Positions 7,570-18,603 of a stretch of 64,000 nt of DNA are shown in pieces. The notes beneath the pieces are model-generated. The model saw only the letters and a program-made list of their open reading frames with translations. It was not told where the DNA came from and searched no databases. Positions within the stretch are counted from its first letter, which is position 1, and every line of letters starts with the position of its first letter. Source of the DNA: Treponema sp. (GTDB lineage Bacteria; Spirochaetota; Spirochaetia; Treponematales; Breznakiellaceae); contig WRMC01000006.1 of the NCBI GenBank assembly GCA_009777335.1, forward strand, positions 59,473 to 123,472, written 5' to 3'. Made by a program: the position numbers and the translations under genes.

Positions 7570-8187
7570 ATGGAAATCCAGCTGCAAGAACTCATCGATA
7601 AGATTAAAAAAGACGGAATTGAAACCGCCTCCGAAGAAGCGGCGAAGCTAAAGCGGGAAGCCGAGGCAGAAGCGGCCAGAATTGTCTCTGCAGCCCAGAA
7701 AGAAGCGGCAGATATAGTGAATCAGGGCCGGGTCGATGCTGATCGGGTGGAAAAAGCCGGAAAGGCAGCCCTGGAACAGGCCTCCCGGAACCTAATTCTG
7801 GCCTTTAGAGGGGAGGTTGACGCCCTTTTAGAGCGTATCGTGGCCCAAGCGGTGGCTTCTTCCTACAAAGAAGACACCCTTAAGGCGGTTTTACCCGAAA
7901 TTTTCAAGGCCTGGGCCCAAAAAGACGGGGTAGAATCCATAGACCTCCTCCTTTCGGAAGATAATCTTAACTCCCTCAAATCCTGGGCCACCGGAGCCCT
8001 CTCGGAGGAGCTAAAGAAGGGGGTGGAGCTTAGATCGGACCGCAATTTAGGGGCAGGGTTTAGAATCGCCAACAAGGACGGCTCGGCCTACTACGATTTC
8101 TCCGCCGAATCGGTGGCGGTCCTCCTTTCAGCCTACCTGAATCCCCAACTGGCGGAGGTTCTTTCGCTCTCCGCAAAGGGAATATAA
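7570..8187 (+). CDS. atpE: V/A-type ATPase subunit E
   Basis: Peripheral stalk subunit that ties the catalytic head to the membrane sector. The 205-residue protein has an Ala/Glu/Lys-rich coiled-coil first half (residues about 10-80, with EAAKLKREAEAEAARI) and a globular second half ending in the NLGAGFRIANKDG type motif usual for subunit E. AGAGGAGCC precedes the ATG. It is the first gene of a tight operon E-DUF2764-A-B-D-I-K-I-K, the order known from Treponema and Borrelia except for the extra I-K. The symbol is the V-ATPase naming, not the F-type c subunit. Confidence 0.88.
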   Translation: MEIQLQELIDKIKKDGIETASEEAAKLKREAEAEAARIVSAAQKEAADIVNQGRVDADRVEKAGKAALEQASRNLILAFRGEVDALLERIVAQAVASSYKEDTLKAVLPEIFKAWAQKDGVESIDLLLSEDNLNSLKSWATGALSEELKKGVELRSDRNLGAGFRIANKDGSAYYDFSAESVAVLLSAYLNPQLAEVLSLSAKGI

Positions 8188-8190
8188 GAG

Positions 8191-8796
8191 GTGGGAGCCT
8201 ACTACTACCTGGGGGCCCAGCTTCCTTACCTGGTCTACGGCCAGGGTCCATCCATGAGCTCCGAAGCTTTCAAGGCCCTGGCCCGGGAGCAGATGAGTTC
8301 CTCCGATGGGGCCCTTCTAGAGGTCTGCACCCTGGATCCGGAACCCCTGGCGGAGGTCCCGGAAGATATGGCCGAAGCAGAAGAGGCGGAACAGCTTCCT
8401 TCCTATGCTAACCTGCCCCCCCGGACCTCCTCTTCCCTCCTTAACTACTGGAGAAAATGGGAAAGACTCCTCAGATTAAACCTGGCCAGGGGCCGGGCCT
8501 TAAAGCTAAAACTGGAGGCCCCCGAGGCCCCCGAATCCCCCCCGGAGATCAGCGCCGCAGTACAGCAGGCCCTAACCATAGAATCCCCCCTGGATGCGGA
8601 ACTCTACCTGGACAAGGCCCGCTGGGATGCCATAGATAGCTTTCTGGGGAACGATATTTTCAGCGAAAACGCCATCTACGGCTATTTATTGAAGCTGCTC
8701 TTAATGGAACGAAGGGCCTCTTTTGACGCCGAACAGGGATACAAGGAATACGAAGGGCTTTATGCCGCCATACTGGGGTCTAAGAACCTCAGTTAG
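8191..8796 (+). CDS. DUF2764 family V-ATPase operon protein
   Basis: A 201-residue protein beginning MGAYYYLGAQLPYL, the hallmark start of DUF2764 proteins. These are found second in spirochaete and chlamydia V-ATPase operons (for example the Borrelia BB0095 slot). A central helical region has LLNYWRKWERLLRLNLARGR and a C-terminal part has DKARWDAIDSFLG. Because these operons lack a recognisable C/d subunit, DUF2764 is suspected to take its place as the link between rotor and head; that is inference. The start is GTG at 8191, three bases after the E-subunit stop codon, so translation is probably coupled. Confidence 0.8.
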   Translation: MGAYYYLGAQLPYLVYGQGPSMSSEAFKALAREQMSSSDGALLEVCTLDPEPLAEVPEDMAEAEEAEQLPSYANLPPRTSSSLLNYWRKWERLLRLNLARGRALKLKLEAPEAPESPPEISAAVQQALTIESPLDAELYLDKARWDAIDSFLGNDIFSENAIYGYLLKLLLMERRASFDAEQGYKEYEGLYAAILGSKNLS

Positions 8797-8837: not shown

Positions 8838-10598
8838 ATGATCGGAACAAAGGGAAATGTGGTTGCCGTTAACGGCAATATGGTCAGCGTACGGTTTGAC
8901 GGCGCTGTCTCCATGAACGAGGTTGGATACGTCAAGGTCGGAGATCAGCGGCTGAAAAGCGAGGTCATCAGGATCCGGGGCGAGGTATCGCAGCTTCAGG
9001 TGTTCGAGATAACCAAGGGGATCACCGTCGGGGACCAGGTTGAGTTTTCCGGCGACATGCTGGCGGTTGAACTGGGCCCCGGCCTTCTGGGCCAGGTCTA
9101 TGACGGCCTCCAGAACCCCCTGCCCCAGCTGGCCGCCAAGGCCGGCTACTTCCTCGAGAGGGGGGTCTATCTGGACCCCCTTTCAACTGAAAAGGAATGG
9201 GCCTTTAGCCCCTCGGTAGGGGAAGGTCAGGCGGTGGAACGGGGAGACTCCCTGGGAACGGTCCCGGAGGGTTCCTTCCAGCACCGGATCATGGTTCCCT
9301 TCAACCTCTACGGCTCCTATACGGTGGCTTCGATTAAACCCGCCGGGACCTACAGGATCCGGGACACCATTGCGGAACTCCGGGACGACCGGGGCACCAT
9401 AGTACCGGTGACCATGTCCTTTTCCTGGCCGGTCAAACGGCCCATAGACTGCTACGAAGAGAGGCTCATGCCCCGGGAGCCCATGGTTACCCGGGTCCGC
9501 CTGATCGATACCTTCTTCCCCGTGGCCCGGGGGGGAACCTACTGCATCCCCGGTCCCTTTGGAGCCGGTAAGACGGTCCTCCAGCAGATTACCAGCCGTT
9601 TTGCCGACGTGGACATCGTCATCGTGGCGGCCTGCGGTGAGCGGGCCGGGGAGGTGGTCGAAACCCTGAAGGAGTTCCCGGAACTCACCGATGAAAGGAC
9701 CGGCCGCTCCCTGATGGAACGGACCATCATCATCTGTAATACCTCCTCCATGCCCGTGGCCGCCCGGGAAGCCTCGGTCTATACCGCGGTCACCCTGGCC
9801 GAGTACTACCGCCAGATGGGGCTCAACGTCCTCCTCCTGGCGGACTCCACCAGCCGCTGGGCCCAGGCCATGCGGGAAATGTCGGGCCGCCTGGAAGAAA
9901 TCCCCGGCGAAGAGGCCTTTCCGGCCTACCTGGAATCTACCATTGCCAGCTTCTACGAGCGGGCGGGGATTACCCGCCTCAGGGACGGCACCATAGGCTC
10001 GGTTACCATTGGGGGCACCGTAAGCCCCGCGGGCGGTAACTTCGAAGAGCCGGTCACCCAGGCGACCCTTAAGGTAGTCGGGGCCTTCCACGGCCTTTCC
10101 CGGGAGCGCTCGGACGCCCGTAAGTTCCCCGCCATCCATCCCCTGGATTCCTGGTCCAAGTACAAGGGAATCATCGACGAAGAAAAGGTGGCCTATGCCC
10201 ATAACTTCCTTCGCCGGGGCTCCGAGGTGGAGCAGATGATGAAGGTCGTCGGCGAAGAGGGCACCAGCATCGAAGACTATATCATCTACCTCAAGGGTGA
10301 ACTCATAGACTCGGTCTACTTTCAGCAGAACTCCTTTGATGAGGTCGATGCGGCGGTTAAGCCCGAACGGCAGATTTATACCTTTAGCAAGCTCCTCACC
10401 ATTTTGGCTTCCCAGTTTAGCTTCCCCGACAAGAATGAGGCCCGGGTCTGGTTTAACCGGCTCAGGCAGCGCTTCCTGGACTATAACGGTTCGGTGTGGC
10501 AGGACGAAAGGTTTAACACCCTGGAGAAAGAAATCGAAGAGGCTGTTCAGAGCCAGTCCCAGGGCCTCGATAGGACCGCAGAGAAAATTTTGGCATAA
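8838..10598 (+). CDS. atpA: V/A-type ATPase catalytic subunit A
   Basis: Catalytic nucleotide-binding subunit of the head. The 586-residue length is typical. The Walker A loop is GPFGAGKT (about residue 237), preceded by the non-homologous insert that distinguishes V/A-type A subunits. Later come the ADSTSRWAQAMREMSGRLEEIPGEE segment region and the IGSVTIGGTVSPAGGNF stretch. Lies between the DUF2764 gene (gap 41) and atpB (gap 15). Essentially certain as subunit A. Confidence 0.97.
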   Translation: MIGTKGNVVAVNGNMVSVRFDGAVSMNEVGYVKVGDQRLKSEVIRIRGEVSQLQVFEITKGITVGDQVEFSGDMLAVELGPGLLGQVYDGLQNPLPQLAAKAGYFLERGVYLDPLSTEKEWAFSPSVGEGQAVERGDSLGTVPEGSFQHRIMVPFNLYGSYTVASIKPAGTYRIRDTIAELRDDRGTIVPVTMSFSWPVKRPIDCYEERLMPREPMVTRVRLIDTFFPVARGGTYCIPGPFGAGKTVLQQITSRFADVDIVIVAACGERAGEVVETLKEFPELTDERTGRSLMERTIIICNTSSMPVAAREASVYTAVTLAEYYRQMGLNVLLLADSTSRWAQAMREMSGRLEEIPGEEAFPAYLESTIASFYERAGITRLRDGTIGSVTIGGTVSPAGGNFEEPVTQATLKVVGAFHGLSRERSDARKFPAIHPLDSWSKYKGIIDEEKVAYAHNFLRRGSEVEQMMKVVGEEGTSIEDYIIYLKGELIDSVYFQQNSFDEVDAAVKPERQIYTFSKLLTILASQFSFPDKNEARVWFNRLRQRFLDYNGSVWQDERFNTLEKEIEEAVQSQSQGLDRTAEKILA

Positions 10599-10613: not shown

Positions 10614-11912
10614 ATGAAGAAAGTATACAGCAAAATCGAATCTATCACCGGAAGCGTTATCACCGTCCGGGCCGAAGGGGTCCGCTACGGAGACCTGGCA
10701 GAGGTCGACACGGTCTTCGGCACCTCCCTGGCGGAGGTTAACCGTCTCGAGAACGACATGGTCTCCCTCCAGGTCTTCGCCGGGGGCCGGGGTATCTCTA
10801 CCAACGATACGGTCCGCTTCCTGGGCCGTCCCATGGAGGTGCCCTTTTCCGATAACCTCATGGGCCGGGTTTTCTCGGGCTCCGGGTCTCCCCGGGACAA
10901 GGGTCCGGCCCTTCACGACAAGGTGATCCCCATAGGGGGCCCCTCGGTTAACCCCTCCCAGCGCATCATCCCCCGGAACATGATCCGGACCGGTATCCCC
11001 ATGATCGACCTCTTTAACACCCTGGTGGTCTCCCAAAAGCTCCCCATTTTCTCCGTATCCGGGGAACCCTACAACGAGCTTTTGGCCCGGATCGCCATGC
11101 AGGCCGAGGTCGATGTCATCGTCCTGGGGGGCATGGGTCTTAAATACGATGACTACCTCATCTTTAAGGACACCCTGGAAAACGCCGGGGCCCTGGCCCG
11201 GACGGTGATGTTCATGCACACCGCCTCGGACCCCACGGTAGAATGCCTCATGATCCCCGACATGTCCCTGGCGGTGGCGGAGCAGTTCGCCCTTCAGGGC
11301 AAGGACGTGCTGGTCCTCTTGACCGACATGACCAACTTTGCCGACGCCATGAAGGAAATATCGATAATCCAGGAACAGGTTCCCTCTAACCGGGGCTACC
11401 CTGGGGATCTTTACAGCCAGTTAGCCAGCCGCTACGAAAAGGCCGTCGACTTTGAAACCGCCGGTTCCATCACGGTCCTGGCGGTGACCACCATGCCCGG
11501 GGATGACGTGACCCACCCGGTACCGGATAACACGGGCTACATCACCGAGGGCCAGTTCTACCTAAAGAACGGCCGTATCGAACCCTTCGGCTCCCTGTCC
11601 CGTCTTAAGCAGCAGGTCAACGGCAAGACCCGGCCGGATCACCGGGCCCTGATGGACGGGATGATCAAGCTCTACGCCTCCTTTAAGGACACCCTGGAAA
11701 AGAAGGCCATGGGCTTTATCATGACCCACTGGGATGACAAGCTTTTAAAGTACGGCGAGATGTTCGAGGCCCAGATGATGGACCTTTCGGTGAACATCCC
11801 CCTGGAGCGGGCCCTGGACCTGGGCTGGGAAATCCTGGCGGAATGCTTTAGCCCCGAAGAAACGGGCCTAAGGACCGAGTTAATCAGCCGCTTCTGGCCC
11901 AAGAAGGACTAA
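10614..11912 (+). CDS. atpB: V/A-type ATPase subunit B
   Basis: Non-catalytic, regulatory partner of subunit A in the hexameric head. It is 432 residues long. As expected for subunit B it lacks a Walker A loop; the corresponding region reads [15 protein letters not shown]. Family segments include [15 protein letters not shown] and the [19 protein letters not shown] region. A second open frame on the opposite strand is a shadow. An AGGGTT stretch precedes the ATG, and atpD begins one base after the stop. Confidence 0.96.
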
Positions 11913-11913
11913 G

Positions 11914-12555
11914 ATGGCAAAAATAAAACTCACCAAAAATGAGTTAAAGAAACAAAAAGATTCCCTGAGGATGTACGAGCGCTACCTGCCGACCCTGATC
12001 TTGAAGAAGCAGCAGCTCCAGGCCGAAATCAGGACCACCGAGATCCGTTTACGGGAGCTCATGGCCGACAAGGACAACCTGAACGAGATCTTCCGGGTCT
12101 GGATTGGGGTCTTTGCCGAGACCGAGGTCTTTACCCCCGATATACTCACCATCCTGGATATAAAGACCTCCCAGGGGAACATAGCAGGGGTGCCTATTCC
12201 CATCTTCGAGGGGGCCGATTTCGAGATCTCCTCCTACGACCTGGCCCGTAAGCCCCTCTGGCTGGATCTGGCGGTGGAGAAGCTCAAGCAGGTCTTTCTT
12301 CTTGACCTGGAAGCCGAGGTGGTGGAGGAACAGCGCAAGCGGCTGGACCATGAGCTGCGGATCACCACCCAAAGGGTAAACCTCTTCGAGAAAATCAAGA
12401 TCCCCGAGACCAAGGGGAATATCAAGAAGATCCAGGTCTACCTGGGGGATCAGCAGACCGCTGCGGTGGTCCGGGGCAAGATAGCCAAACGGGGCCTGGC
12501 CAAGGCAGCTGCCGCAAGCCAGGCCTCCGCAGCCTCTCAAGCGAGCGGAGCGTAG
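11914..12555 (+). CDS. atpD: V/A-type ATPase subunit D
   Basis: Central rotor shaft inside the AB head. The 213-residue protein has the family start KLTKNELKKQKDSLRMYERYLP and two long antiparallel helices. The C-terminus ends in a low-complexity Ala/Ser/Gln tail (AKAAAASQASAASQASGA), an unusual extension that may be disordered. The start ATG is one base after the atpB stop, with AAGGA inside the atpB end, so the two genes are translationally coupled. The first I-subunit gene follows after four bases. Confidence 0.93.
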   Translation: MAKIKLTKNELKKQKDSLRMYERYLPTLILKKQQLQAEIRTTEIRLRELMADKDNLNEIFRVWIGVFAETEVFTPDILTILDIKTSQGNIAGVPIPIFEGADFEISSYDLARKPLWLDLAVEKLKQVFLLDLEAEVVEEQRKRLDHELRITTQRVNLFEKIKIPETKGNIKKIQVYLGDQQTAAVVRGKIAKRGLAKAAAASQASAASQASGA

Positions 12556-12559
12556 AACT

Positions 12560-14593
12560 TTGATAGTGCCCATGAAACGGGTATCCCTGGTGGTAATGAA
12601 CAAACACCGGGAGGACTCATTGCATAAACTCCGGAATGTGGGGCTCCTCCACCTGGAAGAAAAAAATGTCTCCTCTGAAACCCTTACGGCACTATTAGAA
12701 GAACAGGCCCAGATAGAAAAGGCCAAGGGGATCCTGGAACCCTATAAATCCAGGGCGATCCTACAGAAGATTGATATACTCCATAAGCATGTGGCCCCCC
12801 ATAAGCGGGCCGCCGATGCGGAGGGCGAACTATTCAGCGACGAGGGGGTACCCCTTTCGGCGGATGCTCCCGAACGGCCCGCGGGCCAGCGTTTATCCCT
12901 TTCGGCCCATATTGCGGGGCTCGAAGAGAGGCAGAGGTCCCTCCTGGAGCTGGAGGCTTCGGTGGCCAAGGAACAGGCGAGGATCCAGGGCTGGGGTAAT
13001 TTTAGTCCCCGGGATATCCGCTTTCTGGCCCGGAACGGGGTGCACCTCTACCTTTACGAGTTTGCCCCCGGAGCCTTGCGCTACATTTCTTCCGATGTAT
13101 CCTACCTGGTCATTAATAAAACCAGGGATACGGCCTACATCGTCAGTCTGGGGATGGAGATCCCCGGCGAAACTCCCGTATCTCCGGGGCGCCAGTCCCT
13201 GGAAGAGCTGACCTATCAGCTGCAAGAAATTCGAAAAGAGCTTAGCGAGATCGACAGCCAGTTCCTCTCCCTCTACTTCCGGGATCATGTCCTGGATGGT
13301 GAATTGATCAACGTTATGGAGCGCATCGAATTTGAATCCGCCCATGCGGGCATGGAGTCCCTGGGCTCGGAGATCTTCGGGCCCGTTATATCCTGGGTTA
13401 CCGGTTTTGTCCCTGCCGAAGATGCCCTGCCGGTCAGGCAAGTAGCCGTAGACAACGGCTGGGCCTATGCGATTTCTGATCCCAGCCCCACGGACCTTCC
13501 CCCGACCATTATGCGCAATAAATCCCTGGCCCAGATCATCCAGCCCCTCTTTAGGCTCCTGGGGACCCTTCCGGGCTATTGGGAGTACGACATCAGCATC
13601 TTATACATGCTCTTTTTCTGCATCTTCTTTGCCATGATCTTCGGCGATGGGGGCTACGGGCTGATCTTCTTTGGCGGAACCATAGCCGCATTTTTCATTA
13701 CGAAGCTTAAGACAGGCCGCGTCCCCGATTTGGTAAAGCTGTTTTTTTTCCTTTCGATCTTTACCGTCTTTTGGGGGGCCATCACCGGGGCCTGGTTTGC
13801 GGTGCCCCATGCGAATCTGCCCCCCCTTCTGCGTTCCTTTATCATCCCCCCCTTTAATAACCAGGGGCCCGTGTCCGAGTTTCCGGCCATATTACAACAG
13901 ATTTTTGAGCTCCCGGCGGCGGTGCCCACCGATGAGTTAAAGACCCGCTGGTACATCCAGTTCCTCTGTTTTACCATCGCCCTGGTCCAGTTGATTACCG
14001 CCAGAACCTATCTTTTGGCCAAGCTTCTTCCTTCGCTGGAAGCCTTTGCCCAGGTGGGGATGATCCTCATGATAGGGGGGATCTACTTTTTCGTCCTCTC
14101 TCTCCTCCTGGCCATACCCCTGCCTTCGTTTGTTCTGCCCTTTGTCATTGCCGGGGTGGCCCTCAATTTTATCTTCTCTGAACAGAAGGGGGGAAACTTT
14201 TTTGTTAACATTTCCAAGAGTTTTTCCAACTTCTTCTCGATCTTTTTAAAAGTGGTAAGCTGCTTCTCTGACATTATCAGCTACATCCGGCTCTTTGCGG
14301 TGGGCCTTGCGGGTTCCTTAATTGGCAAAACCGTGAACACCATTGCCCTCTCTTCCGGGGGCATTTCGGAAGGGCTTGCGGGCTTTACCATGGACTTCTT
14401 TTTAAAACTGACCGGTACTGCCCTGATCCTTATCTTTGGGCATCTTTTGAATATATTAATGGGTTCCCTCTCCCTGGTGGTCCATGGGATCAGGCTCAAC
14501 CTTTTGGAGTTTGCAGGGAACCACCTGGGGATGGAATGGTCTGGGTATGATTACAAGCCCTTTGCATTAAAGCATAAAGAAGCAGTTTCATAG
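12560..14593 (+). CDS. atpI: V/A-type ATPase subunit I, first copy
   Basis: Membrane stator subunit (subunit a equivalent) that forms the ion half-channels against the c-ring. At 677 residues, it has a soluble N-terminal half and a C-terminal half with about seven or eight hydrophobic segments starting near residue 345. The essential arginine motif is SYIRLFAVGLAG, with R577. The start is a TTG (MIVPMKRVSLVV), supported by the matching start MVVPMKKIFLLV of the second copy. It is clearly paralogous to the gene at 15066 but 59 residues longer, with extra sequence around residues 60-130 and 390-450. Followed after 10 bases by its own K gene. Confidence 0.92.
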   Translation: MIVPMKRVSLVVMNKHREDSLHKLRNVGLLHLEEKNVSSETLTALLEEQAQIEKAKGILEPYKSRAILQKIDILHKHVAPHKRAADAEGELFSDEGVPLSADAPERPAGQRLSLSAHIAGLEERQRSLLELEASVAKEQARIQGWGNFSPRDIRFLARNGVHLYLYEFAPGALRYISSDVSYLVINKTRDTAYIVSLGMEIPGETPVSPGRQSLEELTYQLQEIRKELSEIDSQFLSLYFRDHVLDGELINVMERIEFESAHAGMESLGSEIFGPVISWVTGFVPAEDALPVRQVAVDNGWAYAISDPSPTDLPPTIMRNKSLAQIIQPLFRLLGTLPGYWEYDISILYMLFFCIFFAMIFGDGGYGLIFFGGTIAAFFITKLKTGRVPDLVKLFFFLSIFTVFWGAITGAWFAVPHANLPPLLRSFIIPPFNNQGPVSEFPAILQQIFELPAAVPTDELKTRWYIQFLCFTIALVQLITARTYLLAKLLPSLEAFAQVGMILMIGGIYFFVLSLLLAIPLPSFVLPFVIAGVALNFIFSEQKGGNFFVNISKSFSNFFSIFLKVVSCFSDIISYIRLFAVGLAGSLIGKTVNTIALSSGGISEGLAGFTMDFFLKLTGTALILIFGHLLNILMGSLSLVVHGIRLNLLEFAGNHLGMEWSGYDYKPFALKHKEAVS

Positions 14594-14603
14594 GGAGATG
14601 TGA

Positions 14604-15041
14604 ATGGAATCAAGAACCTTGGTTGAGTTGGGTTTAACCCTTTGTTTTGGCCTTTCCTCCTTAGGCGCCGTCATTGGGGTTACCGTCAATGCCCCGGCGG
14701 TTATCGGTGCCTGGAAAAAGAGCGCCCTGAACAATAGGCCCGCCCCCTTTATTATGGTCATCTTTGCCGCCACCTGTATGACCAATATTATCTATGGCTA
14801 CATTGCCATGGATGCCATGGCCAACAGCGTCATCATGAGTGATAACTTTATTTTCTTTATGAGCCTGACGGCGGGAATTTGTATAGGGATGAATTCATAC
14901 ATCCAGGCAATGATCTGTGCCAATGCGGCGGATGCCTTTGGCGAAACCGGCAGAAACTTTGGTAACTATATGATGGTAGTCGGCGTGGTCGAAACCTTTG
15001 CACTTTTTATAATGGTCTTTGTAATCCTCATCGCGGGTTAG
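14604..15041 (+). CDS. atpK: V/A-type ATPase subunit K (c-ring), first copy
   Basis: Proteolipid that forms the rotating membrane ring. The 145 residues form four hydrophobic segments, that is two fused hairpins, as in other V/A-type K subunits. The ion-carrying glutamate is E130 (VVGVVETFALF) in segment four. Lining it up with the well-studied Enterococcus hirae ring gives T60, N61, Y64 and Q101 at the other ligand positions; E. hirae and the second copy here have glutamine where this copy has N61. GGGAGATG precedes the ATG. It sits between the two I genes, so I-K forms a repeated pair. Confidence 0.92.
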   Translation: MESRTLVELGLTLCFGLSSLGAVIGVTVNAPAVIGAWKKSALNNRPAPFIMVIFAATCMTNIIYGYIAMDAMANSVIMSDNFIFFMSLTAGICIGMNSYIQAMICANAADAFGETGRNFGNYMMVVGVVETFALFIMVFVILIAG

Positions 15042-15065
15042 AAAGATCCAGATTGGAGTTGGTCT

Positions 15066-16922
15066 ATGGTTGTACCGATGAAAAAAATCTTCCTCCTGGT
15101 TCAGGAAAAATACCAGGATGGGGCCCTTAAACTCCTCAGAAAGATGGGGGTGGTTCACCTGGAAAGGCGGGCCGTCTCTTCCGAGGCCCTGGTAAAGCTT
15201 ACGGCCGAAAAGGCCAAGGCAGACACCGCTCTGCGGATGCTCAGGCTCTACCAGATAGAACCCGAGAAGGGGGCCGTAGCTGCTCCCCGACCGGATAAAA
15301 GGGCCCTTAAAGAGGGCCTCGTGAGCCAGACCCTAAGCCTGGTGGAAGAACGGAAGGTTCTCTTGGATGAACTCCTCAAGCTAAGAAGGGAAAAAAGCCG
15401 CATAGAAGAATGGGGTGACTTTGATCCCAAGGGCTTTGCGGAGATCTTTTCCGGCGCCAAACTAAGCTTCTTCCTCTATAAACTTCCGGCCAAGGCCATG
15501 GAAAAGCTCCCCGAAAGTATCAGTTATATTGCCATAAGTTCTGACAAGAGCTTCCACCGGATTGCAGTCCTTAACGAAGAGATCCCCGGCAGAAGCCCCC
15601 TCTCCATGAGCGACTACTCGGTAGGGGAGATCAATTCCCTCATACAGGGGATCGACGGAAAGATCGCGGCCCTGGAAGACCAGCTTAGGAGTCTCGCCGA
15701 GGACATTCCCCTTTTAGAGAACGAAATCAACATCTGTCTGGAAAACATAGAGTTCGAAACCGCCCGGGCTAAGATGAACTCCCTTGACGATGTCCCCCCC
15801 GAGGCGGCCATCTCCTGGATCACCGGCTTTGTTCCTCAAGAAGACCTGGGGCTCATTAAACGGGGGGCCTCGGAGAACGGCTGGGCCCTCTTGGCTTCCG
15901 ACCCGGGGCCCGAAGATACGCCCCCCACGAAGCTCAAAAACAGCAAGTTTGTAAACTTGTTGAATCCCATCACCGACTTCTTAAACATATCTCCCGGCTA
16001 TGACGAGCCCGATATCTCACCCTGGTTTTTAATCTTTTTAACCATCTTCTTTGGCATGCTCTTCGGCGACGCCGCCTACGGGGCCCTTTTTGTGATCATT
16101 TCGATTATTGGGATTATCAAAACCGCCAAGAAGGGGGTGCCCATAGGGCTTAAACTCCTCCTTCTACTGGGGACCTCAAACCTCATCTGGGGCATCCTCA
16201 CCTGTTCATGGTTTGGCCTGGAGGCCCACCAGGTACCCCTGGCCCTCCAGCAGATTTCCCTGCCCCTGATTTCCAGTGTCACCGCCGCCAGGTCCGAATA
16301 TGACGCAGGGATCGTTCAGCAAAACTTAATGATCATCTGCTTTAGCCTCGCCCTGGTCCACCTTTCCATAGGCCATATCATCGCCATCAGCCGGACCAGG
16401 GGTTTAAAGATCCTCTCAGAGCTGGGGAGCATAGCCATGCTCCTGGGGATGTACGGGGTGGTTCTCTCCCTCATCGCCAGTAATGAGCACCGGCAAATTC
16501 CCCTTCCCATGATCTGTGTCTATCTATTGGCCGGGGGCTTTGTCTTTGTCTTTGTCTTCACCGGCTACCAGGGCAGTATAGGGGCCTCTATCCTGGATGG
16601 CTTTAAGAACATCATCGGAATGATCCTGGGGATCGCCAATGTGTTCTCCGATACCATGTCCTATATCAGGCTCTGGGCTGTGGGGCTCGCTGGGGGTTCC
16701 ATAGCCATGACCGTCACCGGCATGGCTGGACCCATGCTGGGGAGTTTTATCTTCTTTATCTTCGGGGTCATCATCCTGGCCCTGGGACATGGCTTGAATC
16801 TTATCTTGAACCTCCTGGGCGTCCTGGTCCATGGGGTTCGTCTAAACACCCTGGAGTTTTCGGGGCATGTGGGCCTGACCTGGTCGGGCACCGCATACAA
16901 GCCCTTCCAGGAGAAGAATTAG
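15066..16922 (+). CDS. atpI: V/A-type ATPase subunit I, second copy
   Basis: Second stator subunit of the operon, 618 residues. The start ATG at 15066 gives MVVPMKKIFLLVQEKYQDGALKLL, parallel to the first copy. The C-terminal half carries the membrane helices and the arginine motif SYIRLWAVGLAGGS with R535. Sequence similarity with copy one is spread along the whole length but the two are well diverged, so the duplication is not recent. Both copies keep the key arginine and look intact. It is separated from its own K gene by an unusual 113-base gap full of small palindromes. Confidence 0.92.
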   Translation: MVVPMKKIFLLVQEKYQDGALKLLRKMGVVHLERRAVSSEALVKLTAEKAKADTALRMLRLYQIEPEKGAVAAPRPDKRALKEGLVSQTLSLVEERKVLLDELLKLRREKSRIEEWGDFDPKGFAEIFSGAKLSFFLYKLPAKAMEKLPESISYIAISSDKSFHRIAVLNEEIPGRSPLSMSDYSVGEINSLIQGIDGKIAALEDQLRSLAEDIPLLENEINICLENIEFETARAKMNSLDDVPPEAAISWITGFVPQEDLGLIKRGASENGWALLASDPGPEDTPPTKLKNSKFVNLLNPITDFLNISPGYDEPDISPWFLIFLTIFFGMLFGDAAYGALFVIISIIGIIKTAKKGVPIGLKLLLLLGTSNLIWGILTCSWFGLEAHQVPLALQQISLPLISSVTAARSEYDAGIVQQNLMIICFSLALVHLSIGHIIAISRTRGLKILSELGSIAMLLGMYGVVLSLIASNEHRQIPLPMICVYLLAGGFVFVFVFTGYQGSIGASILDGFKNIIGMILGIANVFSDTMSYIRLWAVGLAGGSIAMTVTGMAGPMLGSFIFFIFGVIILALGHGLNLILNLLGVLVHGVRLNTLEFSGHVGLTWSGTAYKPFQEKN

Positions 16923-16993
16923 GTTTGCCCGGCAAACCGGGTCAGCCTGGCTGCCCTGTTTGCTTTGCAAAGCTTATCTAAGCCCCTCGGGGC
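16922..16993 (+). promoter_or_regulatory. run of four palindromes before the second K gene
   Basis: In order: GGTTTGCC-C-GGCAAACC (16922-16938), CAGCC-T-GGCTG (16943-16953), GCTTTGCAAAGC (16962-16973) and GCCCC-TC-GGGGC (16982-16993). The first two are perfect inversions around one base, so as RNA their innermost pairs would open. No T run follows, so they are not ordinary terminators. This is the only long gap between I and K genes in the operon. A role in mRNA processing or stability that would raise expression of the c-ring gene is inference. Confidence 0.5.
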
Positions 16994-17035
16994 CTGGACA
17001 AGCTAGATATATTATCCAAATGAGGAGTGTCTTTT

Positions 17036-17473
17036 ATGAATTTAGGTTTACTTGCATCAGGTCTTGTGTTAGGTGTTTGTGCCATTGGCTCGGCTATCGG
17101 TATCGTAACCGCCAGTCAGGCGGTAATTGGGGCATGGAAGAAATGTTACATCGCCGACCGGCCCGCACCCATGACCATCCTGGCCTTCGGGGGCGCCCCC
17201 TTAACCCAGACCTTCTACGGGTACATACTGGGGCTGCTCTTCATGAAACCCGCCGCCGAAGCGAATCCCGAGATGGGGGGCTTTTACCTCTTCATCGGTA
17301 TCTTCTCCAGCTTGGCCATCGCCGCATCAGCCATTACCCAGGGTATGGTTGGGGCCCGGGGCGCCGACGCGACCGGAGAAACCGGACAGGGTTTTGTTAA
17401 TTACATGATGCTCGCGGGGGTCTGCGAAACCGTTGCTATCTTTGCAATGGTTCTTTCCATGATCAGCCTTTAG
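17036..17473 (+). CDS. atpK: V/A-type ATPase subunit K (c-ring), second copy
   Basis: Proteolipid ring subunit with four hydrophobic segments. I start it at the ATG at 17036 because AGGAG lies 8 bases before it; the tracked GTG at 17027 overlaps that ribosome site. The resulting 145 residues match the first copy in length. The essential glutamate is E131 (LAGVCETVAIF). T57, Q58, Y61 and Q102 fall at the ion-ligand positions, and the Q102-E131 spacing of 29 equals Q110-E139 of the sodium-binding E. hirae ring. This suggests sodium coupling, though the source is family knowledge, not experiment here. The ispG gene follows. Confidence 0.92.
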   Translation: MNLGLLASGLVLGVCAIGSAIGIVTASQAVIGAWKKCYIADRPAPMTILAFGGAPLTQTFYGYILGLLFMKPAAEANPEMGGFYLFIGIFSSLAIAASAITQGMVGARGADATGETGQGFVNYMMLAGVCETVAIFAMVLSMISL

Positions 17474-17499: not shown

Positions 17500-18603
17500 A
17501 TTCTCAAGATTGGCGGTTTTGCCCATGTACAGCCCGCATACCTTGGAAAGGGTTTGCCGGTGCTTATCCAAACCATGTGGAAGGACCGCCTTTCTTATGA
17601 GGATCTAAAGACCGGTGTATTAGATACCCATATAAAACGTATAAGGGGGCTGCAAGACATGGGCTGCAGCCTCCTGCGTTTTGCGGTTCCCGACATGGAA
17701 GCCGCCGAGGTCCTGGGTAAGCTCTCAGAGGCGGTTACCATGCCCCTGGTGGCGGACATACACTTTGATTACAAAATAGCCCTCCGCTGTCTCGATTTTC
17801 CCATCGCAAAGATACGCATAAACCCCGGCAATATAGGCAATAGCGATCATTCCCGGGCGGTGATCTCCCGGGCCCAGGAAAAGCAAAGGCCCATCCGAAT
17901 AGGGGTCAACGGGGGAAGTCTGCCCCAAGACCTGGCCCAAAAGGCAGAGGGGGGCCAGTTGAGCCTGGCCCTAGCCATGGTAGAAGCGGCGGAACGAGAG
18001 CTGGCCATATTCGATGAGCACTCCTTTAAGGAAGTCCTCCTTTCCATGAAGGCCTCCAACATCAGGGACACCATAGAAGCTAACCGCCTCATGGCCCAGC
18101 GCAGGGACATCCTCCTCCATGTGGGGGTTACCGAGGCGGGACCCCATGTGGCCGGGACGGTCCGAAACACCGCCGCCCTATTGGCCCTCCTAAAAGATGG
18201 CATAGGGGATACCATCCGGGTCTCCCTCTCGGATACCATGGAGCGGGAAGTGATGGCCGGCCGGGAAATTCTTGCCGCCCTGGAGGAACTATACCCGGAT
18301 CTGCCCAGGGAAGGCCGCCCCAGGGGGGTGCAGCTCATTTCCTGCCCCCGCTGCGGCAGAAGCAGTTTTGACACCATCGCCTTTACGGCCCGCTGGGAAA
18401 ACCGCCTCTATGCCATGGCAAAGGATATCACTGTGGCCATCATGGGCTGTGTGGTAAATGGCCCCGGGGAGGGCCGTCATGCTGATTTAGGGATCACCGG
18501 GGCAGGGGAGAAGGTCCTCATCTTCCGCCATGGCCAGGTGGTAAAGACCATAGAGGAAGGGGATGCCGACCGGGTCTTTGCAGAGGAGCTGGACAAGTTC
18601 TAA
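17500..18603 (+). CDS. ispG: 4-hydroxy-3-methylbut-2-enyl diphosphate synthase (IspG), probable ATT start
   Basis: Iron-sulfur enzyme of the non-mevalonate isoprenoid pathway. Family segments include MPLVADIHFDYKIAL, RINPGNIGN and the C-terminal cluster region with SCPRCGR and MGCVVNGPGEG. The ORF track starts at TTG 17554 (MPVLIQTM), but the family's conserved start continues upstream in frame (KIGGFAHVQPAYLGKG). No ATG, GTG or TTG lies in frame upstream of that block. An ATT at 17500 has AAGGA seven bases before it, an ideal ribosome site, so I use it (367 residues). ATC at 17475 is a weaker option. It follows the second K gene by 26 bases, probably in the same transcript. Confidence 0.85.
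   Translation: MLKIGGFAHVQPAYLGKGLPVLIQTMWKDRLSYEDLKTGVLDTHIKRIRGLQDMGCSLLRFAVPDMEAAEVLGKLSEAVTMPLVADIHFDYKIALRCLDFPIAKIRINPGNIGNSDHSRAVISRAQEKQRPIRIGVNGGSLPQDLAQKAEGGQLSLALAMVEAAERELAIFDEHSFKEVLLSMKASNIRDTIEANRLMAQRRDILLHVGVTEAGPHVAGTVRNTAALLALLKDGIGDTIRVSLSDTMEREVMAGREILAALEELYPDLPREGRPRGVQLISCPRCGRSSFDTIAFTARWENRLYAMAKDITVAIMGCVVNGPGEGRHADLGITGAGEKVLIFRHGQVVKTIEEGDADRVFAEELDKF

Follow-up and report, generated by a model that had tools for sequence, protein, structure and literature searches.

Two divergent I-K cassettes behind a single set of head genes in a V/A-type ATPase operon of Treponema

The operon and its two I-K pairs

The window analysed here, a stretch of 64,000 nucleotides from a draft genome of Treponema sp. 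(family Breznakiellaceae; assembly GCA_009777335.1, contig WRMC01000006.1), carries an operon for a V/A-type ATPase in which one set of head genes is followed by two pairs of genes for the stator subunit (I) and the rotor subunit (K) of the membrane sector. The genes are arranged in the order E-DUF2764-A-B-D-I1-K1-I2-K2, followed by ispG, all on the + strand (Table 1). A first-pass annotation, made from the sequence alone, had described two complete I and two complete K genes in the order I-K-I-K behind a single E-DUF2764-A-B-D set, and this is borne out by the open reading frames and by the family matches. Pfam and NCBIfam models recognise one copy each of E, DUF2764, A, B and D upstream of the I-K array, and name I1 and I2 as V_ATPase_I and K1 and K2 as ATP-synt_C or subunit K.

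All four I and K proteins pass the Pfam cut-offs. With the NCBIfam subunit K model (cut-off 127), K2 scores above the threshold (142.9 bits) and K1 just below it (123). I1 and I2 score 467 and 487 bits with the NCBIfam I model, under its cut-off of 799, as is also the case in 116 of 117 genomes. This model, NF004429 (PRK05771.2-2), matches in all 117 genomes and reaches its cut-off in one, and it is too narrow for this order.

The two copies of each gene are well diverged, as had been noted earlier, with 33% identity between I1 and I2 over their length and 39% between K1 and K2. The arginine motif YIRL starts at residue 575 in I1 and 533 in I2, which places the arginines at R577 and R535 exactly as first annotated, and a second conserved arginine, in the motif RLN, lies at 645 and 592, respectively. 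The ion-carrying glutamate is likewise retained in both rotor subunits (E130 of K1 and E134 of K2, numbered from the listed start). Alignment with relatives shows no variation, in either copy, at these two arginines of I or at the Tyr, Gln and Glu of K. AlphaFold predicts a four-helix bundle for K1 and for K2, with predicted local distance difference test (pLDDT) values of 91 and 92.9, and in a structure search both resemble V-type proteolipids of solved structures. The top fold match of the K2 model is NtpK of Enterococcus hirae (2BL2), whereas the K1 model matches eukaryotic proteolipids best, with 2BL2 at rank 34, which is weak evidence. Searching the PDB with single K proteins by phmmer gave no match, whereas a search with a K profile did.

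Both pairs are under purifying selection. Between the window's genome (G000) and a second species of its genus (G003), the fractions of amino-acid and of silent sites that differ (pN/pS) are 0.38/0.83 for I1, 0.29/0.83 for K1, 0.26/0.81 for I2 and 0.12/0.73 for K2, compared with 0.07/0.73 for A and 0.04/0.72 for B in the head. Saturation of the silent sites in most pairs precludes exact dN/dS ratios. The possibility that one pair consists of pseudogenes, which the first-pass annotation had raised as an objection to its own proposal, is rejected on the basis of the open frames, the conserved arginines and glutamate, and pN values far below pS.

Intergenic gaps are short between D and I1 (4 bases), I1 and K1 (10) and K1 and I2 (24). 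The gap between I2 and K2 is the longest within the I-K array, at 104 bases to the listed start GTG 17027 and 113 bases to ATG 17036, and it carries a hairpin which may influence translation of K2. The second of these starts is probably the correct one since relatives start with MNLG and the motif GAGGAG sits directly upstream. The GC content of the cassettes is near that of the operon, with K1 lowest (0.478), and gives no clear sign of a recent foreign origin. The ispG frame, 349 amino acids long, is shorter than in most relatives (about 360-400).

Table 1. Features of the V/A-type ATPase locus in the window.
Feature	Coordinates	Strand	Basis
Subunit E (stalk)	7570..8187	+	NCBIfam NF002424, E 2e-60, 203.9 bits, under cut-off 241
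DUF2764 protein, regular member of such operons	8191..8796	+	Pfam PF10962, above cut-off
Subunit A (catalytic)	8838..10598	+	NF003220, 781 bits (cut-off 470)
Subunit B	10614..11912	+	NF002555, 761 bits (cut-off 431)
Subunit D (central shaft)	11914..12555	+	NF002565, 236 bits (cut-off 189)
I1, alpha-type stator subunit, 677 aa, TTG start	12560..14593	+	Pfam and NCBIfam; alpha clade in I tree
K1, alpha-prime rotor subunit, 145 aa	14604..15041	+	Open reading frame, K tree, residue alignment, four-helix model
I2, beta-type stator subunit, 618 aa	15066..16922	+	Pfam and NCBIfam; beta clade in I tree
I2-K2 gap with hairpin and Shine-Dalgarno-like GAGGAG	16923..17035	+	Sequence reading; hairpin from hairpin scan
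K2, beta rotor subunit, 145 aa from likely start	17036..17473	+	Alignment, GAGGAG upstream, four-helix model
ispG (gcpE), customary gene 3' of the I-K cassette in the family	17554..18603	+	PF04551, TIGR00612, synteny

Two cassette lineages, alpha and beta

Relationships among the I-K pairs were examined in a set of 117 genomes, complemented by a census of 195 genomes of the family, 164 of which carry K, and by named loci (L numbers) that represent the best 80 of 520 confirmed loci retrieved with a profile of alpha I proteins. Rows were left out where I was shorter than 450, K shorter than 118, A shorter than 400, B shorter than 350 or D shorter than 190 amino acids. The trees are quick searches with branch support from the Shimodaira-Hasegawa-like approximate likelihood ratio test (SH-aLRT) only, except for an approximately unbiased (AU) test on I1 of G000 and G003. 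Pairs of the I1-K1 type are denoted alpha and those of the I2-K2 type beta; alpha-prime is the sublineage to which I1-K1 belongs, and f3 is the outgroup family.

In a tree of 142 I proteins, I1 falls within an alpha clade of 59 and I2 within a beta clade of 49, each spanning many genera. Outgroup f3 sequences join the beta side and five non-family records (L154-L157 and L166) the alpha side. The split is marked by branches of 64 and 66 rows with SH-aLRT values of 99 and 100. An earlier tree of 81 I proteins, with a site-mixture model, gives the same split, and the K trees concur with a wider error. Beyond the genus, the I proteins nearest to I2 are those of G037 and G031, both beta. When I and K types were scored together, leaving out 34 I names belonging to neither clade, they matched in 91 of 91 pairs (49 alpha-alpha, 42 beta-beta and none mixed), and the I-K pair therefore travels as a cassette, the two pairs in the window not being recent duplicates. 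Alpha and beta are, on the tree evidence, two old cassette lineages that split before the family arose. The "tandem duplication" of the first-pass annotation thus does not hold, the neighbouring copies not being sisters, while its suggested test, a tree asking whether the pairs split before the genus, yields an even older split.

Synteny shows that the slot between D and ispG is occupied by either cassette type. Additional evidence for transfer of I and K together came from two contigs in the G001 bin, C10 (L008) and C178 (L009). They show about 60% nucleotide identity at the start of their overlap in I, then a sharp tract of 83-97% identity that spans K and the membrane half of I, followed by mostly 65-75% in ispG; silent divergence is 0.5 for I, 0.3 for K and 1.5 for ispG. 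This pattern indicates that the membrane part of I and the K gene were exchanged as a unit between related lineages, and C178 may derive from a second species in the bin. Within the alpha-prime group the signals partly conflict. The I1 proteins of G000 and G003 do not group as sisters (AU p 0.0066), G003 I1 grouping with G045 and L112, whereas in the K tree K1 of G000 and G003 group with those of G001 and G002 (SH-aLRT 96). We draw no firm history inside this group because long branches are involved.

The ion-binding site of K

The Na+ ligands of E. hirae NtpK are the Leu61 backbone, Thr64, Gln65, Gln110 and Glu139, with Tyr68 lying below (PMC2359735, available text). Our mapping of K residues onto NtpK rests on motif spacing. 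In K2 the spacing T60-Q61-x-x-Y64, and the distance of 29 residues from Q105 to E134, agree with the NtpK numbering in the available text of that paper, and K2 holds equivalents of the full set (Thr64, Gln65, Tyr68, Gln110 and Glu139). In K1 the equivalents of Thr64, Tyr68, Gln110 (Gln101) and Glu139 (Glu130) are kept and Asn61 replaces Gln65.

This replacement is fixed in one clade. Among 149 aligned K proteins, the Gln65 position holds Asn in all 12 members of the alpha-prime clade (SH-aLRT 100) and Gln in all 121 alpha, beta and outgroup sequences; the remaining 16 rows, which come from genomes that matched K twice, hold Gln in 14 cases and Asn in two (G219 C106 and G221 C88). Across the alignment Thr64 is Thr or Ser, and Tyr68, Gln110 and Glu139 are kept save for three rows gapped at Glu139. 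The beta type carries the Na+-ligand set of NtpK and is probably a Na+ enzyme; the alpha-prime type lacks the Gln65 ligand, and its ion affinity or ion choice has probably changed. Matches to an rnfC model in eight of eight genomes searched, G000 included, fit Na+ energetics without proving them.

Single- and dual-cassette genomes

The first-pass annotation stated that known spirochaete operons carry one I and one K. This stands as the usual state, with complete I-K-I-K arrays on one contig in two of the 195 family genomes, among which each of the 23 with at least two K matches was inspected, but dual cassettes recur in other arrangements. In the window's genus, G000 and G003, the latter a separate assembly (L007/L103), carry alpha-prime followed by beta, and only alpha-prime was found in G001 and G002. 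The record MS499-28 (L092), of another lineage, has the reverse order, beta then alpha. In four genomes of genus g43 (G225, G229, G230 and G232) the head operon contains beta, and an alpha I-K-ispG cassette lies on another contig, with no head genes on the stretch read. These seven dual genomes lie in one supported head clade of 18 rows which also holds alpha-only and beta-only members, suggesting that both types have long coexisted there and that some lineages lost one of them later.

Some loci at contig ends show other combinations. G202 (L094) has K-I-K with both K of the alpha-prime type, and G155 (L113, G155:C209) has I-K-K. In G155:C209 and G158:C119, both of genus g50, an extra K or K fragment lies about 1-1.4 kb from the I-K pair or K. 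In three further loci, L047 (G009:C259), L048 (G009:C252) and L263 (G221:C114), DUF2764 adjoins I on contigs in which no A, B or D was found, perhaps reflecting another operon order.

No further I or K gene was found in the assembly of the window's genome (2.16 Mb, 28 contigs, 77% complete). Four ATP-synt_ab genes are present, namely A, B, one FliI and one Rho, and there is no other rotary head in the assembly. G002 (97% complete) has the same ATP-synt_ab set together with an alpha-prime I-K pair alone, and the alpha-prime type can therefore serve as the sole membrane sector.

Isolate codes of the relatives correspond to termite-gut metagenome samples (G001, Lab288P1bin11; G002, Emb289P1bin105; G003, Th196P3bin120; G045, Emb289P3bin52). 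The hosts of those samples feed on humus or soil, and P1 is highly alkaline (PMC7024585, available text). The family Breznakiellaceae harbours most termite-gut spirochaetes (PMC13067680, available text). Where alpha-prime records bear host codes of PMC7024585, those hosts feed on humus, soil or litter, but some of them also harbour beta, and an ecological link is only suggestive.

Heads versus cassettes

In a tree of concatenated A, B and D proteins, alpha-only and beta-only genomes are interleaved and at least seven changes of type are required; forcing the 18 alpha heads together (against 23 beta) costs 295.6 log units (AU p 5.68e-7). A larger head tree of 109 rows (41 alpha and 32 beta) requires at least 10 changes, compared with 19-29 for shuffled labels, and the cassette types are thus inherited in patches even though they change often. 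An rpoB tree (20 alpha and 25 beta) gave the same kind of result, with at least 10 changes, a value not far below those for shuffled labels (mean 15.0, minimum 9). More weight was put on the head tree because the rpoB tree is poorly resolved and near the shuffled values. The latter tree does not include G010, G015, G028, G037 and G054, where rpoB was not found, G036, where the frame is broken, and G062, where it is a fragment. In G036, a single-contig genome of 4.6 Mb, rpoB is split into several frames (G036:C1:2326062-2329352), which points to a low-quality assembly.

Starting from an ancestor with both types, nine losses of each type would be needed on the head tree and 16 plus 11 on the rpoB tree, and if the types were swapped at least seven and at least 10 changes, respectively. 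Both swapping and differential loss are compatible with the trees. Subunit A is broken in two loci with alpha-prime only, L091:5188-6944 (G045) and L128:5310-7067, one by a frameshift and the other by an in-frame stop, both about 90-100 residues from the start, as a result of sequencing error or decay.

Interpretation of the dual cassettes

We consider it fairly probable that one cytoplasmic head (A, B, D, E and DUF2764) of the spirochaete V/A-type ATPase serves two alternative sectors in the membrane, one formed by I1-K1 (alpha-prime) and one by I2-K2 (beta), and that each of them is a matched stator-rotor pair acting as a unit. The head would couple with either sector to give two enzyme forms in one cell. 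Stator and rotor would form closed units since I and K types match, and the head would accept both sectors since head lineage is only loosely tied to cassette type. That both sectors are made, that the head is shared, that mixed sectors are avoided and that the ions differ is what we infer from the comparison of genomes. Among possible reasons for keeping both sectors, the changed site in K is the strongest candidate, and it lends plausibility to the part of the original proposal that had the two rotor/stator sets differing in ion handling, the choice of ion itself being inferred. A more specific form of this explanation is tentative, namely that in termite-gut spirochaetes the sector is swappable and the coupling ion is set by which I-K pair is made, with beta the canonical Na+ form and alpha-prime, through its remodelled site, adapted to a different ion, affinity or pH, as might suit a strongly alkaline hindgut.

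Several points weigh against a shared head with functionally distinct sectors. The assembly of the window's genome is incomplete and a second head may be missing from it. G003 and the G225-type genomes hold further pairs of ATP-synt_ab genes, so that the extra cassette there could serve another head; in G003 the two genes lie on one contig and look F-type, as judged by their size and spacing. In four-helix K subunits a reshuffling of the ligands is tolerated, and some predicted Na+ enzymes have other polar residues in place of Gln65 (PMC2359735, available text), and Asn therefore need not alter the ion. Moreover, the alpha pair evolves faster than the beta pair (dN 0.54 versus 0.33 for I and 0.37 versus 0.14 for K), a finding which is also consistent with relaxed constraint.

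That last result bears directly on a different explanation, that an incoming or relict cassette stands beside a resident one in a transitional state, with one pair redundant and in the course of being lost, the tandem capturing a cassette replacement under way and having no function. The faster alpha pair in I-K-I-K genomes, the prevalence of genomes with one type only, the frequent changes of type along the head tree and the evidence from G001 of a cassette recombining as a unit all fit such a state. Both pairs are, however, intact, and they show constraint in the comparison of two species with saturated silent sites, and as seven genomes of one head clade retain both types the coexistence looks long-lived; we consider a transitional state rather unlikely. 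A mixed sector, in which K1 and K2 form a hetero-ring or I and K cross-pair and thereby alter the ion-to-ATP ratio, has a parallel in Acetobacterium woodii and Clostridium aceticum, where two kinds of c subunit are encoded in one operon (PMC7911925, available text), and K1 and K2 share the same length, the four-helix fold in their models and one operon. It is improbable nonetheless, given that a whole second I accompanies K, that the absence of pairs mixed in type points to rotor-stator matching, and that orphan alpha cassettes keep both I and K.

There is very little to commend a recent tandem duplication of I-K in the species or genus followed by divergence. Adjacent pairs in the same order and on the same strand would be its natural product, but I1 and I2 lie in two strongly supported multi-genus clades and in neither the I nor the K trees are the copies nearest kin, and it was rejected. 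An artefact of assembly or binning, which the fragmented and incomplete draft could have invited, was also rejected as exceedingly unlikely: the window lies within a 123-kb contig, and tandem cassettes occur in independent loci, in the separate assembly of the second species and, in reverse order, in a third record (L092).

Comparison with known systems

Whether the two halves of rotary ATPases, head and membrane sector, are separable as evolving and working modules is an old question. Within one bacterial family there is now a natural series of alpha only, beta only, tandems in two orders and separate loci, in which I and K are matched and the head lineage is single. It leads to the prediction that rotor-stator matching is strict and head-membrane matching loose, and the rotor pair differing by a fixed ligand change provides material for testing ion choice. 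No description of such a two-cassette arrangement was found in literature searches, whose coverage left out most subscription papers, nor in the available portions of two papers on termite spirochaetes.

Treponema and Borrelia are among the bacteria with V-type ATPases (PMC2359735, available text). The window has the same genes, order and families as the spirochaete-type E-DUF2764-A-B-D-I-K operon, which usually contains one I and one K, and with its two anciently different I-K pairs it constitutes a variant form. Compared with E. hirae NtpK, K2 shares both the fold match and the ligand set while K1 differs in carrying Asn at Gln65. The F-ATPase operons of A. woodii and C. aceticum resemble the locus in encoding two kinds of ion-carrying subunit, but they are F-type, their two kinds of subunit are presumed to assemble into a single ring, and no second stator is described in the available text of PMC7911925.

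In yeast, the V-ATPase likewise combines one head type with alternative stators, the a subunits Vph1 and Stv1 (PDB titles 6o7t and 6o7u). There the a subunit differs and sorts the enzyme to organelles, whereas here the whole stator-rotor pair differs, and in a bacterium. Dual-stator flagellar motors of Shewanella and Bacillus have one rotor and exchangeable stators, some of which use different ions (PMC9039648, available text). They are not homologous, and in them the rotor stays while the stators swap, whereas in this ATPase the ring would be exchanged along with its stator beneath one ATP-using head. The locus encodes a variant form of a known enzyme, with analogies in the yeast a-subunit isoforms and the dual-stator motors.

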